From positions 434,001 through 498,000 of the forward strand of contig PADC01000006.1 in assembly GCA_002700385.1 (NCBI GenBank): 64,000 nucleotides of DNA, read 5' to 3'. Shown here piece by piece: positions 27,130 through 49,736 of this stretch. The translations under genes were made by a program, and so were the position numbers. Every line of letters begins with the position of its first letter. The stretch's first letter is position 1. This DNA is from Cycloclasticus sp. GTDB taxonomy: Bacteria > Pseudomonadota > Gammaproteobacteria > Methylococcales > Cycloclasticaceae. The notes beneath the pieces were generated by a model. That model did no database searches. It saw only the letters and a list, made by a program, of their open reading frames with translations, and was not told the origin of the DNA.

Positions 27130-27834
27130 TTAATTTTCACAGAGCTCAGTTAAACGTGTCTTATCTATCAACGCTCGGTGAGTCGATACCACATTGATAA
27201 TCCCTTCGCGTTTAAGCGCGGCAACGATACGACTCGCAGTCTCTGTTGTGATCGCTAACATCGCACCCATATCATCTCGCGATGGCAAATAAACCGCCTG
27301 ATCGCCACCGTCTTCAGCCAAATAAAGTAACAAGTAAGCCACACGTTGTTTGGCAAAACCACTCGATAATTTTGATAACCATAGATCAGCATCAGAAATG
27401 ACACGTTGCCAACGGCTCGTCAATTGTTTGGCTAGATGGGGTGAGTGTTCGTTTAAGGTTTCAATTTGGCTAACCGGAATGCGGCAAAATGATGCGTCTT
27501 CAAGCACAATAGCATGATGAAAATAATTCTTACCATCTAACGCTTCTAAGCCAACGACATCACCTTTTTTAATGATACGAACAACCCTAACGGTTCCATC
27601 AACAAGATAAGTCACTAACTTCACCAAGCCTTCTCTTAAGGTATAAATACTTTCAGAACGATCGCCTGGGTGATAAAGGGTGGCGCCTACCGGTAAATTA
27701 AATTCATTAATCGGGCGGTGGATCAATTCAAAATCGCTTTTTTTCAAATCTGCAAATAAAACCAAATGCCGTATCGCACATTGCTCGCATTTCTCACCTG
27801 CGTTCCAAACTTTACTTATTTGATGCTGTTTCAT
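27130..27834 (-). CDS. Crp/Fnr family regulator with FNR-type DNA recognition helix
   Basis: The 234-residue protein has an N-terminal cupin-like sensor domain (YHPGDRSESIYTLREGLVKLV) and a C-terminal winged helix. The recognition helix reads TTETASRIVAALKREG. The E-x-x-S-R of E. coli FNR (E209, S212, R213), which reads TTGAT half-sites, is preserved. For the [4Fe-4S] cluster, Cys16 and Cys19 (CEQC) and Cys117 (FCRIP) match FNR C20, C23 and C122. The position of C29 is Val25, with His23 nearby. The cluster may therefore use another ligand or be missing. It faces the DsrE-like gene across a perfect FNR box. Confidence 0.85.
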   Translation of the reverse strand: MKQHQISKVWNAGEKCEQCAIRHLVLFADLKKSDFELIHRPINEFNLPVGATLYHPGDRSESIYTLREGLVKLVTYLVDGTVRVVRIIKKGDVVGLEALDGKNYFHHAIVLEDASFCRIPVSQIETLNEHSPHLAKQLTSRWQRVISDADLWLSKLSSGFAKQRVAYLLLYLAEDGGDQAVYLPSRDDMGAMLAITTETASRIVAALKREGIINVVSTHRALIDKTRLTELCEN

Positions 27835-27894
27835 TGAACTCTAGTCCTTAAAGCAGAGCTTAATTAATAAGGAGAAAATTTAAAAACGACTCGA

Positions 27895-27936
27895 TTGATA
27901 ATTATCAACGGTTTGAAAGTTTATCGATCATACACT
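27895..27936 (+). promoter_or_regulatory. FNR/ANR box and class II promoter of the DsrE-like gene
   Basis: A perfect palindrome TTGAT-AATT-ATCAA lies at 27895-27908, the FNR consensus. From its centre, TACACT at 27931-27936 lies 30 bases downstream, exactly where a -10 box sits when an FNR dimer binds at -41.5. Start would then be near 27943, with AGGAG before the ATG at 27969. The site is also 61 bases from the regulator's own start on the other strand. Confidence 0.75.
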
Positions 27937-27968
27937 AACTCATTCATGAACCCAAAGGAGACTCAATA

Positions 27969-28400
27969 ATGAAAAAAACAAACCTTATTCTCATCATTCT
28001 CATGTTCTGTTTAACCGTTTTTTCCGGAATGGCCACAGCGTCAAAATCGACAGGTGTTTTTATTGATCTTTCAAGCCCCGATATTTTTAAAATTCACCGT
28101 GCCTTTGCTGTTGGCACCATGCTGAGGACCACTCAAGATGTTGATGTTACCGTCTATATCAGTCTTGCCGTCACTCCTTATGTTAATAAGGATTACCCTG
28201 TCGCAAAAATGCTATCGCTTAGAGGCCAGAATGTACATCAACATATGGAAGACTTTATGAAAGTCGGCGGTAAAATTATGGTCTGTTCAATGTGTCTTGC
28301 AGGGCATGGCATTGACCCGGACAATATGCTGCCAGGGCTAACAACGGGCATGCCGGGGAAACTGATGATGGCTGAGGGTGTTAAATTATTGAGTTATTAA
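27969..28400 (+). CDS. exported DsrE/TusD-like sulfur-carrier-type protein
   Basis: The 143-residue protein has a signal-like hydrophobic N-terminus (residues 5-22, FSGMATA). A DsrE-like alpha/beta domain follows with AFAVGTMLRTTQDVDVTVYIS and a C-terminal VCSMCLAGHGI (Cys106 and Cys109) that resembles the redox Cys of DsrE/TusD/YchN proteins. Most members of this family are cytoplasmic, so a secreted version is notable. A function in periplasmic sulfur or metal trafficking under low oxygen is inferred from the FNR box. AGGAG lies 8 bases before the ATG. Confidence 0.75.
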   Translation: MKKTNLILIILMFCLTVFSGMATASKSTGVFIDLSSPDIFKIHRAFAVGTMLRTTQDVDVTVYISLAVTPYVNKDYPVAKMLSLRGQNVHQHMEDFMKVGGKIMVCSMCLAGHGIDPDNMLPGLTTGMPGKLMMAEGVKLLSY

Positions 28401-33193: not shown

Positions 33194-33236
33194 AAGATAC
33201 TCTCTCGCGGATCTTTTACGCATTGATCTTGATCAA
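33194..33236 (-). promoter_or_regulatory. FNR/ANR box and class II promoter of the DUF3149 gene
   Basis: TTGAT-CTTG-ATCAA at 33223-33236 is a second perfect FNR half-site pair. On the minus strand a -10-like TATCTT (33199-33194) begins 31 bases after the centre, as in class II FNR promoters. The leader to the DUF3149 ATG would be about 40 bases. The carbonic anhydrase gene starts 200 bases away on the other side, so control of it is less likely. The 33147-33436 gap otherwise shows nothing. Confidence 0.7.
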
Positions 33237-33436: not shown

Positions 33437-34039
33437 ATGGAAAACTTAGAACATCTTTTTAAAAACAATAAAGAGTGGGCAGAATCAATTACAAAAGAAG
33501 ACCCAGATTTCTTTACCAACTTATCCAAATTACAGTCACCTGAATACCTTTGGATTGGCTGTTCTGACAGCCGGGTTCCTTCTAATCAACTCCTTAATCT
33601 TGCGCCTGGTGAGGTCTTTGTCCACCGTAATATTGCCAATATGGTTATCCACAGTGATTTAAACTGCCTTTCTGTTATTCAATATGCCGTTGAAGTTCTT
33701 AAAGTAAAACACATTATTGTTTGCGGCCATTATGGCTGCGGTGGCATCAAGGCATCAATGGAAAATAGTGACCACGGGCTAATTGATAACTGGCTGGGCC
33801 ATATCAAAGATGTACACCGCCTTCACGCCGATGAATTAAAAAAAATCAGTGATGCGACTGACAAACTCCACCGATTGTGCGAACTGAATGTCATTGAACA
33901 AGTGAGTAATATTTGTAACACCACCATCGTAAAAAACGCTTGGAAAAACGGTGCAAGCTTATCCGTTCACGGCTGGATTTATAATATTGAAAATGGCATT
34001 TTGAAAGATATTATTGAAACGCCTATCACCCAAGCATAA
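33437..34039 (+). CDS. can: beta-class carbonic anhydrase
   Basis: The enzyme interconverts CO2 and bicarbonate. The 200-residue protein has all four zinc-site residues at the E. coli Can positions: Cys42 and Asp44 in WIGCSDSRVP, His98 and Cys101 in VCGHYGCGGIKA. HRNIANMV and the C-terminal VHGWIYNIENGIL complete the fold. The start is at the usual place, MENLEHLFKNNKEWAE. It has its own region of 290 bases upstream and stands opposite DUF2721. Confidence 0.96.
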   Translation: MENLEHLFKNNKEWAESITKEDPDFFTNLSKLQSPEYLWIGCSDSRVPSNQLLNLAPGEVFVHRNIANMVIHSDLNCLSVIQYAVEVLKVKHIIVCGHYGCGGIKASMENSDHGLIDNWLGHIKDVHRLHADELKKISDATDKLHRLCELNVIEQVSNICNTTIVKNAWKNGASLSVHGWIYNIENGILKDIIETPITQA

Positions 34040-40861: not shown

Positions 40862-43800
40862 TTATTTTGTTGGTGCCTGTACTTTGAACCAAGCGACATA
40901 CATCGCAGGAAAAACAAACAAGGTGAGCAAGGTAGCCACCCATAGTCCATTCATCATCGTAATCGCCATTGGCCCCCAAAAATAATCATCTAGCAACGGT
41001 AACATCGCAAAAATAGCCGCCAAGGCTGTCAGAATAATCGGCCTGGCGCGTCTCACGGTTGATTCCAGCACTGCATCCCAAGGCGACAGCCCCGAAGCCA
41101 AGTCCTGCTCTATTTGGTCTATCAAAATAATGGTATTACGGATAATAATGCCGGTGAGTGCCAACATGCCTAAACGCGCCACTAAGCCAAACGATAAATC
41201 CATCAAAAGTAAAATAGAAACAACCCCAATCAAACCCAGAGGTACCGTCATCAGAACCAGTGTCATTTTTCGTATGCTATTAAGCTCAAACATAAGCAAC
41301 GTTAAAATAGCGACTAACATAAACGGCAGTGTTTTTGCTAGTTGAACATCCACTTCTTGCGAAATATCAATTTCACCAAACACCTCTATTCTATAACCAC
41401 TGGGTAAGCTATTTCTTAATTCATTAACGTCGTTTTCTAACTTCTTCACAATATCAAAGTTTAAAACACCATCGGCCAATAGCGACTGGACAATAATGGA
41501 GCGATAGCCGTTGTATCGCCAAACAATGCCTTCTTCAAAACGAAAGTTAATGTCAGCTAATTCAGATAACGCCACGGTCTTGCCATTAGCAACGGGCACT
41601 TGCAACAACCTGATACGATCAAGTTGATGACGATTTTCAGGCTTATTTCGTAACTCTACGTTGATCAGATCGTTTCCTTCTCTATATTGCGTAACAGGCA
41701 AGCCATCAAGCATTGCCCGTAAGGTTTTACTTAGTTGAGCGGGGGCTGTACCACTGGCAGCAACTCGGGGAAGGTCAAGCGTGATGTCAACAACTAAACG
41801 TTTTTCACGACGGTTATCATGTACATCTCGCGTTGACGTATCATTCTGTAAGATTTGTTGCAATTGATCAGAAATAGTTACCAAGACTTCTGGATCATCT
41901 CCTGTAATCAAATATTGCAAGGGATAATTAAATGGCAAGCCATAAGTCAGGCTGTAAACTCGTGTACGTAAATTTGCATGGTGAGTTGAAAAATAGTCCC
42001 TGAGCATGCTTTTAATATTTTCACGTGCTTGCAACGTATCCGCAATCACAACTATCTTGCTGTAATTAGCATTAGGTTGTTCAATGTACATATCGTTTTG
42101 AACACGCAAAGAATCGCCGCCGATATAGGCAATAATGTTTTCTATATGCTGTTGCTCACTGAGCTTTTGCTCAATCTCCGCTATTTGGCGCTCCATCTGC
42201 TGATAACTGGTTCCCTCTGGAAACCAGACATCAACGAGCGCTTCCGGCCGGTCATTCCCTGGAAAAAACTCCATTTTCACGTGTTGCACACCAGCAATGG
42301 TCAAAGCGAAAAGGAATACGGTAACGCCAATGACACTTTTTTCATGCTCCATACTCCAAGCAATTAATTGACGAAATTTTTTATAAAAAGGCGTTTGATA
42401 CATATCAACTACAACAGTGCCATCCTGCTGCTTTAGTGTATGATCACTAGGATTAACCTTGAGCAATTTAAAGGATAAGTAAGGCGTTAATAACACCGCC
42501 ACGACCCAAGATGTTACCAAAGCGGCGCTGATAACGACAAAAAGCTCACCCAATATTTCTTGTGGCGACGCATTAACAAGAAAAACAGGAAGAAAACCAA
42601 CAGCCGCTATCAGCGTTCCACTCAACATCGGTTTTGATGTCGCTGTATAAGTAAAGGTTGCTGCCTTTAATCGATCCCAACCTTGTTCAAGTTTCACGTG
42701 CACTAATTCCACCACAATCATCGCATCGTCCACCAACAAACCGAGAGAAATCACCAAGGCTCCTAGTGACACCCTGTTCAAACCAATACCCCATACGTAC
42801 ATCAATACAAAAACAACGCCTAGTACAATGGGAATAGCCAAAGCCACTACGATGCCCGTTCGCAAGCCTAATGAGAAATAACAGACAATCAAAACAATAA
42901 GAATGGCTAGCGTAAGCTTGTTAAGAAAACGATTGATTTGTGCCGCAACTGATTTGGGCTGATCCGCAACCAGCGCTATTTTCATTCCTACGGGCAATTG
43001 TTGTTTAAACTCCGCCATGACTGCTTTGACTTGATCAGACATTGATAATAACTGAGAACCTTCACGCATCGTAATACCTAAACCGATAGATGCTTCACCA
43101 TTGACACGCATTCTAAACGACGGTGGATCCTCATAACCTCTATAAACATGGGCCACACTGTCAAGGTAAATAACACGGCCATCGCTTAAACTTATTGGCA
43201 TTTTTTGGATATCTTCTATCGACCGAAAACGATCATTTAAACGCAAACGGTAATGATTTTGTTGCCCATCAACACGTCCACTACTTTGAACTTGATTATG
43301 CTGATTCAATAACAAACCAATTTGTAACGGGTCTAAACCCAGTGCGGCAACCCGTTTGTCATCTAATTCGACGAATACTTTTTCATTTTGTACGCCATAC
43401 AAAATAGCCTTTTCAACAGACGCTATGCGGACAACGGCATTTCGAGCTTTCTCCGCATAATTTTTGATTTGCGCAAAGGAATAATCCTCGCTGTTAAAGC
43501 TGTAGACCATGGCAAATATATCGCCAAACTCATCGTTAAAAAAAGGGCCTTGAATATTTGCAGGTAATCGATGAGCAATATCAGCAATTTTTTTTCGCAC
43601 ATCATAAAAGCGGTCTTTCATTCTTGACGACGCATCCGGCATAAAGCCTTCCGTGTTAACGATCAACCAGGCTTCACCGGGTTTACTAAAAGAAACCACG
43701 TCTTTAAGCCAAGGCACTTCAAGTAATTTTGTTTCTATTGGGTCTGCAACAAATTGGGACACTTCTTCAGCAGAAGCACCAGGCCATTGAACACTAACAA

Positions 43801-47793: not shown

Positions 47794-49736
47794 ATGAGTC
47801 ATTACAAAAAGTATTTAGCTTCACCTGTACAGCTCGCCATTATAGCTTTTAGTACATTATTTTTAATCAATTGCACCAGTATTCAACGCATCGATACCGC
47901 AGTGGATGAACAGTCTAACTCATTGGCAATACAAGCCCAAGAAGCTTTATCGGCGCAACAGTTTTCTTTAGCCGCACAACTTTATGTACAACTCGCTGAT
48001 AGTCATCACGCTCCACTGAAAGATCAATACACTATTTCAGCTATCCAGGCTTTTTTAAAAGCTAACGATTTATCGAACGCCAACACGCTGATCAATTCGT
48101 TAAAAAATCGATCGTCGCAGTTATCAACGGAAATTAAATTAACGCTCGCTGACATATTGCTTACACAGGGCAAAGCTGAACGTGCTATTGAATTGATCAT
48201 GAGCATTAACGAAAGTAACTTACCCTCCCAACAACGTATCAATTTACATACTTTGGCCAGCTCCGCTTTTTCCCAAGCGGGCAACTTAATTGAAAGCGCT
48301 CGTGAGCGTATTATATTAAACACACTCATCAATCAACCCAGTGAAAAACTTAAAAATCAAACAAAACTGCTTGATACGCTCTCTCTCATTCCAGAGCATG
48401 CATTAACGTTTTTAAAACCAACCGCTGATAGAGAGCTGGCCGGTTGGATCGATTTAGCCCTCTTAGCGAAACGACAATCCGTCTTCAATCCACACAGCCC
48501 CGAGGTGGATTTATGGAAACAACAATACCCCCAGCACGCGGCCAACAGTTCGTTTCTTTCCATGATGGCCACACAAGCACAACAACACTTTAAAACAGCC
48601 CATAAAGTAGGTGTTTTCCTGCCTACTCAAGGGCCTTTTGCTCAAGCTGCTTTCAGTATTAGGAAAGGCATCACGGCAGCAGCCTACTCATTAGCCCATA
48701 GATGGCCCATGAATATTGTTTTTTATGACACCTCTGCCTCATCCATCGACAGCTTATACCAGCAAGCACTTAACGATGGGGTTAATGTCATTATTGGCCC
48801 TTTAGAAAAAGCCAACATCGCCTCGATTACGAACTTGGTTGACCTGCCCATCCCAATTATTGGACTCAACAAAAACGGCTATCATCGCAATGAGCACTAT
48901 TATGAGTTTTCATTATCACCGGAAGAAGATGTCACTCAAATACTAAACCTCGCTTGGTTAAAAGGGCATGAAAAAGCCCTTATCCTGACGCCTCAATCGA
49001 ACAGCGGTGAACGCTTAGCTCGACATTTTTCAACTATTTGGCAACAACTTGGTGGAGAAGTTCTTGGCGTTCAAACATACCCCGTTAAACAAGCGGATTA
49101 CTCATCGCCTATCAAGAGTCTTTTACAAATTGATGATAGTATCCATCGGTTTAAACAACTCCGACAACGTCTTAATTTAAACATTAAATTTGAAGAAAGA
49201 CGTCGTCACGATGCCGACTTTATTTTCTTAGTGGCAGATCCGCGTGAAGGTCGATTAATCAAACCTCAGTTACGCTTTCATCGAGCATCGAAACTTGCTG
49301 TTTTCAGCACCTCTAAAATTTATGAAGGTGAGCTCAACAAAGTGGCCAATCGTGATTTAGACGGTATCTTCTTCTGCGATATGCCCTGGCTTATTGATAC
49401 CCATCAAGCCCAAAACGACCCATTGACCGAGGCTCTATCATTGTGGAAAAACACGCGAGGACTGCATCGACGTTTAACCGCTTTTGGCTATGATGCGTAC
49501 CAACTTATTCCTCGATTAACGTATTTAAAAACCAGCCGCCATGCTCGCTACGATGGTAAAACGGGTATTCTTTCAATGAAAAATAATGTGATTAATCGAC
49601 AATTAAATTGTGGCCAATTCAAGGCTGGCAACATCAAGCCTCTTGGTCTTGCCCCTCATCTTGAAAAAACAATAAACCTGTTGCCAACAGAACCCACCCG
49701 TCAAGACAATCTAAATACAAATACTTCGCCTCTCTA

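Follow-up and report, generated by a model that had tools for sequence, protein, structure and literature searches.

Divergent Gene Pair and Intergenic Region

The locus lies in a stretch of 64,000 nucleotides from Cycloclasticus sp. (contig PADC01000006.1, positions 434,001 to 498,000), hereafter called the window. On the minus strand, an ORF at 27130–27834 encodes a 234-aa regulator assigned to the Crp/Fnr family by Pfam matches and alignment, and an ORF at 27969–28400 on the plus strand encodes a 143-aa protein with an N-terminal hydrophobic leader and a predicted DsrE fold. The two genes are divergent, with the coordinates already given in the initial annotation of this DNA, and a pattern search returns the previously described perfect TTGAT-N4-ATCAA palindrome between them, that is, the FNR-type box TTGATAATTATCAA at 27895–27908 (plus strand). 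Further downstream on the same strand are a predicted −10 element, TACACT, at 27931–27936, with a predicted transcription start at about 27943, and a Shine-Dalgarno-like AAGGAGA at 27955–27961, where AAAGGAGA is kept in all four aligned sequences.

In class II promoters, the activator site is centered at −41.5. The distance of 29 bases between the box center and the first T of TACACT agrees with the class II spacing that had been claimed, as the box center comes to lie at −41.5 from the predicted dsrE start if the −10 element spans positions −12 to −7. The assignment of the predicted dsrE-like promoter to the class II FNR type is thus supported. On the regulator side of the box, reading of the sequence revealed no TAnnnT at the 29-base register.

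The head-to-head pair of regulator and DsrE-like gene, together with box and −10 register, recurs in four of the five close dsrE genomes. Alignment of these four intergenic regions gives ATTGATAATT(A/C)TCAA and TACACT as common to all, the right half-site reading CTCAA in three relatives. The AATT spacer of the window box is also present in boxes at orthologous loci. In the fifth genome, Gammaproteobacteria bacterium 50_400_T64 (L019), the orthologous regulator is located on another contig, away from dsrE, and dsrE is associated with TGGACAATTGTCAA and TATACT in the same 29-base register. In two further genomes of the genus, G001 and G017, the regulator is present with its other neighbors, and both dsrE and the box are absent. 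Because the two have gone together while the regulator stays, the box appears to serve the divergent gene.

Regulator Family With Three Conserved Cysteines

The regulator matches PF00027 and PF13545 above cut-off (54.7 and 46.4 bits, respectively). Its recognition helix reads E198-T-A-S201-R202, and this residue assignment as well as those of Cys16, Cys19, His23, Val25, and Cys117 are as initially annotated. For the detection of orthologs, a four-sequence model (E ≤ 1e-35) matched in 25 of the 301 order genomes and a 15-sequence model in 41 of the 369 class genomes. Besides the window, the comparison drew on 24 order loci, on L118 (genome G666), and on 32 of the 51 class places outside the own genome. 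After leaving out L063, L170, L175, and L176 as truncated or misframed, an alignment of 54 rows was obtained, comprising the window, 23 order loci, L118, and 29 class loci. Throughout this set the FNR-type helix is kept (E198 in 54, S201 in 52, and R202 in 53 rows), which corroborates the FNR-type DNA recognition ascribed to the protein.

In FNR, Cys20, Cys23, Cys29, and Cys122 are the ligands of the Fe-S cluster. Alignment with PDB 5cvr places Cys16, Cys19, and Cys117 opposite FNR cysteines and Val25 at the site of the third N-terminal one. The three cysteines are kept in all 54 full-length orthologs and are the sole invariant Cys positions, and position 25 is never Cys (35 Val, 8 Ala, 5 Ser, 5 Met, 1 Leu), so that the three-cysteine arrangement is a family trait. 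In a phylogenetic tree, the 54 regulators form one side of a 100/100 branch, opposite four four-Cys FNR paralogs; as the rows had been picked by similarity, this shows separation but not that all three-Cys proteins belong to the group. What had been proposed for the window protein, a modified sensor retaining three of four FNR cysteines, is accordingly a trait of the whole group.

Compared with FNR of E. coli/Aliivibrio fischeri (PDB 5cvr, NF008365), the Crp/Fnr architecture, the E-x-x-S-R helix, the TTGAT-N4-ATCAA site, the class II geometry, and the alignment of three cysteines are shared. In contrast, the fourth Cys is replaced throughout by V, A, S, M, or L, the window protein reaches only 75.4 bits against the NF008365 cut-off of 228 bits, and the group stands apart from four-Cys paralogs in the tree.

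Among candidates for a fourth ligand, His23 had been suggested as a substitute; with conservation in just 10 of the 54 rows it is ruled out. Asp29 was likewise discarded, as it is found in merely 30 rows. Arg22 is present in 50 rows. According to PMC3520743, Fnr of Bacillus subtilis employs three cysteines and Asp141 as cluster ligands, which offers a precedent if the present group, too, completes its three cysteines with a non-Cys ligand. However, the Bacillus cysteines are located in a C-terminal extension, whereas two are N-terminal and one is central in the present group, and with invariant cysteines only at 16, 19, and 117 a Bacillus-type C-terminal cluster is not found. Acidic residues of the present group are the partially conserved Asp29 near the CxxC and Glu97, which is invariant (54 of 54). 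An AlphaFold model computed from an alignment of four rows has a mean pLDDT of 50.3, with the sensor domain poorly modeled. In the open-access literature, nothing was recognized on a three-Cys branch of FNR-like regulators, the searches leading instead to papers on Fnr of B. cereus and B. subtilis and on OprC.

The genome encodes six PF13545 matches, among them the four-Cys FNR-type proteins L001, L002, and L003. The gene of L001 (C6:347089) adjoins that of a Rieske ring-hydroxylating dioxygenase, and a similar-looking dioxygenase gene, identified by eye, adjoins L003 (C12:165088). L001 and L003 are possibly related to DPR-1 and DPR-2 of Cycloclasticus P1. For strain P1, PMC8547461 describes c-di-GMP binding by two other CRP/FNR regulators, a reminder that the signal of the present regulator may be of another sort.

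Exported DsrE-Like Protein

The protein encoded at 27969–28400 is predicted to adopt the DsrE fold, its structure model (pLDDT 69.9) giving YchN as top Foldseek match (E 6.4e-06, TMq 0.59) and matching other DsrE structures. It differs from the known DsrE/DsrF-like proteins (YchN, Swol_2425, DsrEFH) in its predicted export, in a CxMC motif, and in a PF02635 score of 19.2 bits, below the gathering cut-off of 22.7. The CxMC cysteines (C106, C109) as well as H90, H92, M93, H113, and M128 are invariant in all five close orthologs. Such close relatives are rare, being found in four of 61 relatives when counting the genome itself, and a search of a species collection with two peptide patterns gave four dsrE loci, three of them in relatives already counted. 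In the class, eight of 369 genomes have a DsrE match at E ≤ 1e-6, of which only the own one is close. By eye, all seven distant homologs start with a hydrophobic leader and show CxxC at a corresponding position, and none of their loci (3.3–3.4 kb) contains a Crp/Fnr gene. Hence, exported DsrE proteins look ordinary, and the notion that a secreted one is unusual does not hold.

Cytochrome c'-Like Gene as Second Putative Target

The next-best site in the genome, at C3:147462 and with one mismatch, precedes the gene of an exported protein whose start is rich in Met and His. This in-register site is missing from the earlier account of the DNA. The gene, L108:1498-1974 (C3:146935-147402), encodes a cytochrome c'-like protein scoring 27.6 bits with PF01322 (cut-off 26.5). 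In a search of 29 genomes, a close ortholog (E < 1e-30) turned up in all five dsrE genomes and in G009. Of the 23 remaining genomes, 17 gave no match and six matched just weakly (E 1e-13 to 1e-7). An in-register site precedes the gene in five of the six orthologs, the exception being that of G666. These five have TAnnnT exactly at 29 together with boxes of the TTGAT or CTGAT type, the right half being poor in two.

Occurrence of the Box and Its Register

The window holds four perfect boxes and, allowing one mismatch, 10 boxes versus 4.8 expected, a number reached in three of 100 shuffles. The perfect copies outside the intergenic region are at 33223–33236, 42395–42408, and 49394–49407, the first of them about 200 bases ahead of an ORF at 33437 that by eye is carbonic anhydrase-like. 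Across the 2.5-Mb genome, the perfect box is found at 23 places and the reversed pattern at one. The bare box is therefore not rare and on its own proves little.

The combination of box and −10 element is more telling. With a box of at most one mismatch in eight positions and TAnnnT at 29 as register criterion, 18 of 20 putative target promoters (5 dsrE, 6 cytochrome, 7 receptor, and 2 oxidase genes) are in register versus 0.08 expected from first-order Markov resamples; this figure is generous and overstates independence, as some of the promoters share ancestry, the set was assembled after the boxes had been seen, and two members (L108 and L111 of G009) were found via the box and are hence circular. 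The remaining two promoters, those of the G666 cytochrome gene and of the L060 receptor, are not in register; at L060, a box is present 58 bases ahead of the corrected start, but no TAnnnT at 29. At the L059 receptor, nothing is in register within 200 bases, and TTGATATTTATCAT with TAAAGT at 29 is found 231 bases ahead.

Of the 301 genomes of the order, 11 contain the exact 16-mer ATTGATAATTATCAAT, at 13 places in all. Seven of these places are just before a three-Cys regulator, one precedes the cytochrome c'-like gene in G009, and five are within or between genes with no evident link. A site with at most two mismatches from ATTGATAATTATCAAT lies within 400 bases 5' of the start codon for 14 of the 25 other regulators, and the upstream site of the window regulator differs from it at one position. 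As a class-wide signature the exact AATT box was rejected, since none of the 21 class loci (of 29) that could be read has a site with at most two mismatches before the regulator. In L162 and L167, near-matches TTGATAATTATCAT are located at the end of the regulator gene. Counting sites that precede either the regulator gene or one in its vicinity, in-register sites (spacing of 29 or 30, the latter putting the box center at −42.5) are found in 12 of 32 class loci, compared with zero to four at eight other spacing pairs, and the remaining 20 loci are without.

Genes Adjacent to Orthologous Regulators

Within the order, 26 loci were compared (the window, 24 others, and L118). An OprC-like TonB-dependent receptor is encoded divergently from the regulator in eight of them (L051, L052, L053, L056, L059, L060, L061, and L062), dsrE followed by such a receptor in two (L067 and L068), dsrE alone in two (window and L069), and a CueO-like multicopper oxidase beside the regulator in another two (L057 and L058). 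Neither receptor, multicopper oxidase, nor dsrE was found in the DNA fetched for 12 loci, two of which (L050 and L054) had fewer than 170 bases upstream. In several methanotroph relatives a similar box precedes OprC-type copper receptors or CueO-like oxidases. A protein with HMA-DsbD_2 is encoded near the receptor in L052 and L061. The neighbors also include putative FtsX and DUF2058 genes.

For the four receptors scanned, the best NCBIfam model is TonB-copper (TIGR01778), with scores far under the cut-off of 472.45 bits (three full receptors scored 192.3, 208.6, and 215.9, and L060, cut by its contig end, 174.3), placing them in a distant branch of the OprC/NosA copper receptors. When two receptors were searched against the PDB, OprC gave the only matches at E ≤ 1e-8. 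The CxxxM-HxM copper site of OprC, as defined in PMC8610252, is retained, CxxxM in all 10 receptors and HxM in all nine that reach it (L051 ends at the contig end). The genome's own OprC-like receptor (L105:3939-6011, C6) has neither a box nor a Cys at the CxxxM position and was discarded as a target; in the window genome the link to copper is accordingly indirect.

In G478, the receptor gene facing the regulator (L053:3324-5043) is broken into two frames, with box and regulator intact. In several methanotroph genomes, the gene after that of the regulator encodes an exported protein of some 170 aa (L053:6081-6593, L051:1709-2224), for which Pfam gives no match at E ≤ 0.001 (L051) or E ≤ 0.01 (L053).

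In the wider class, the genes behind in-register sites encode, among others, CcoG (TIGR02745, above cut-off), bd oxidase, TehA/SLAC1, DUF6858, Tll0287-like, and multiheme cytochrome proteins. Recurring near three-Cys regulators are also DUF6858 (L161, L163, L164, L165, and L173), a SLAC1 channel (L163, L165, and L172), and a NifX-like protein (L161 and L163). At L158:7874-10375, a Tat-exported molybdopterin oxidoreductase, by eye resembling periplasmic nitrate reductase, is encoded divergently from the regulator.

Proposed Function and Alternative Explanations

Sequence comparison shows the family assignment, the three-cysteine trait, box and −10 register, their conservation, and the recurring neighbors. 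Taken together, we consider it somewhat probable that the regulator is a three-Cys FNR-like class II activator of periplasmic copper and respiration genes that acts at the dsrE box. It would bind TTGATAATTATCAA at 27895–27908 and, as a class II activator, recruit RNA polymerase to the divergent promoter of the exported DsrE-like protein, with the Met/His-rich exported cytochrome c'-like gene as a further putative target in this genome. Cys16, Cys19, and Cys117 would hold an Fe-S cluster that is labile to oxygen or redox changes, the fourth site being non-Cys or open, although without the fourth Cys the cluster may not form. At low oxygen, the regulator would then switch on periplasmic copper and electron-transfer functions, and the exported DsrE may serve copper or thiol chemistry via its CxMC motif. 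A role as local low-oxygen or redox activator tied to copper and electron transfer is suggested by the persistence of regulator and class II box while the neighbor changes, and by the joint disappearance of box and dsrE from G001 and G017. Of the initial interpretation, FNR-type recognition, the class II dsrE promoter, and the three-Cys sensor are retained, and the His23 ligand and the peculiarity of an exported DsrE are abandoned; the neighbors in related genomes, which point to copper and respiration, had escaped it.

That the three-Cys protein acts at the box is itself an inference, as the canonical four-Cys FNR (L002) might serve it, with the adjacent regulator either uninvolved or exerting a modulating effect there. 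Canonical paralogs are present, the recognition helix is of the same type, and perfect boxes are found at 23 places genome-wide, the three four-Cys proteins L001, L002, and L003 being expected to have similar-looking sites. We nevertheless regard this as unlikely, though deserving serious consideration, because a like box stays beside the three-Cys regulator while the divergent gene changes between DsrE, OprC-type receptor, and CueO-like oxidase, because the AATT spacer found in most boxes at orthologous loci is absent from all 22 other perfect boxes of the genome, and because G001 and G017 lost box and dsrE together but retained the regulator. Even less can be said for control by iron. The sequence TGATAATTATCA resembles the inverted hexamers of Fur sites, so that the palindrome might be a Fur-like box through which iron, and not the regulator, controls dsrE. 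The Fur box consensus, however, is a 6-1-6 or 7-1-7 inverted repeat, whereas the window repeat is 6-0-6; it is broken by the CTCAA right half in three relatives, all four sequences share the activator register of the −10 element, and the majority of sites at the second target have retained TTGAT without a Fur-like core. A Fur box was therefore rejected as highly improbable.

Other alternatives concern the signal. Cys16, Cys19, and Cys117 might constitute a Cu(I) or other thiol site instead of binding an Fe-S cluster, with the protein sensing copper or thiol redox state and adjusting copper uptake. We deem this rather unlikely. The FNR cysteines with which the three residues align act as cluster ligands, and the bd oxidase, TehA/SLAC1, Tll0287-like, and DUF6858 neighbors have no evident role in copper metabolism. 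Nonetheless, no conserved Cys or His accompanies the three invariant cysteines as fourth ligand, and OprC-type copper receptor, HMA-DsbD_2 protein, CueO-like oxidase, and CcoG are all among the neighbors. PMC8610252, which describes NosA and OprC as expressed under anaerobic conditions and NosA as subject to repression by copper at micromolar levels, points in the same direction. Nitric oxide might also be the signal, the DsrE-like and cytochrome c'-like proteins then handling NO or nitrosothiols in the periplasm. This would be compatible with the conserved site before the cytochrome gene, with the occurrence of its close ortholog in every dsrE genome, and with the molybdopterin oxidoreductase of L158. 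It appears improbable, since copper and oxygen-respiration genes predominate beside the regulator in other lineages and no NO or nitrite reductase was recognized among the two flanking genes per side, part of whose proteins were scanned.

Beyond the preferred reading of a low-oxygen or redox activator, a broader and quite speculative view, to which we attach little probability, would be that the group joins oxygen and copper signals, either via an exposed copper- and oxygen-labile cluster or via a direct Cu(I) site. It would thereby control OprC-type import and exported partners including the DsrE-like and cytochrome c'-like proteins, with DsrE acting as a new periplasmic copper or thiol carrier. 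As the regulator of related bacteria often faces copper-import genes, the switch at the window locus may belong to the control of copper and respiration. The comparison outlines a widespread FNR-like branch with a uniform three-Cys sensor and with a DNA site and putative targets that can be tested, and it would tie this branch to OprC-type copper import and give the exported DsrE protein a functional context.
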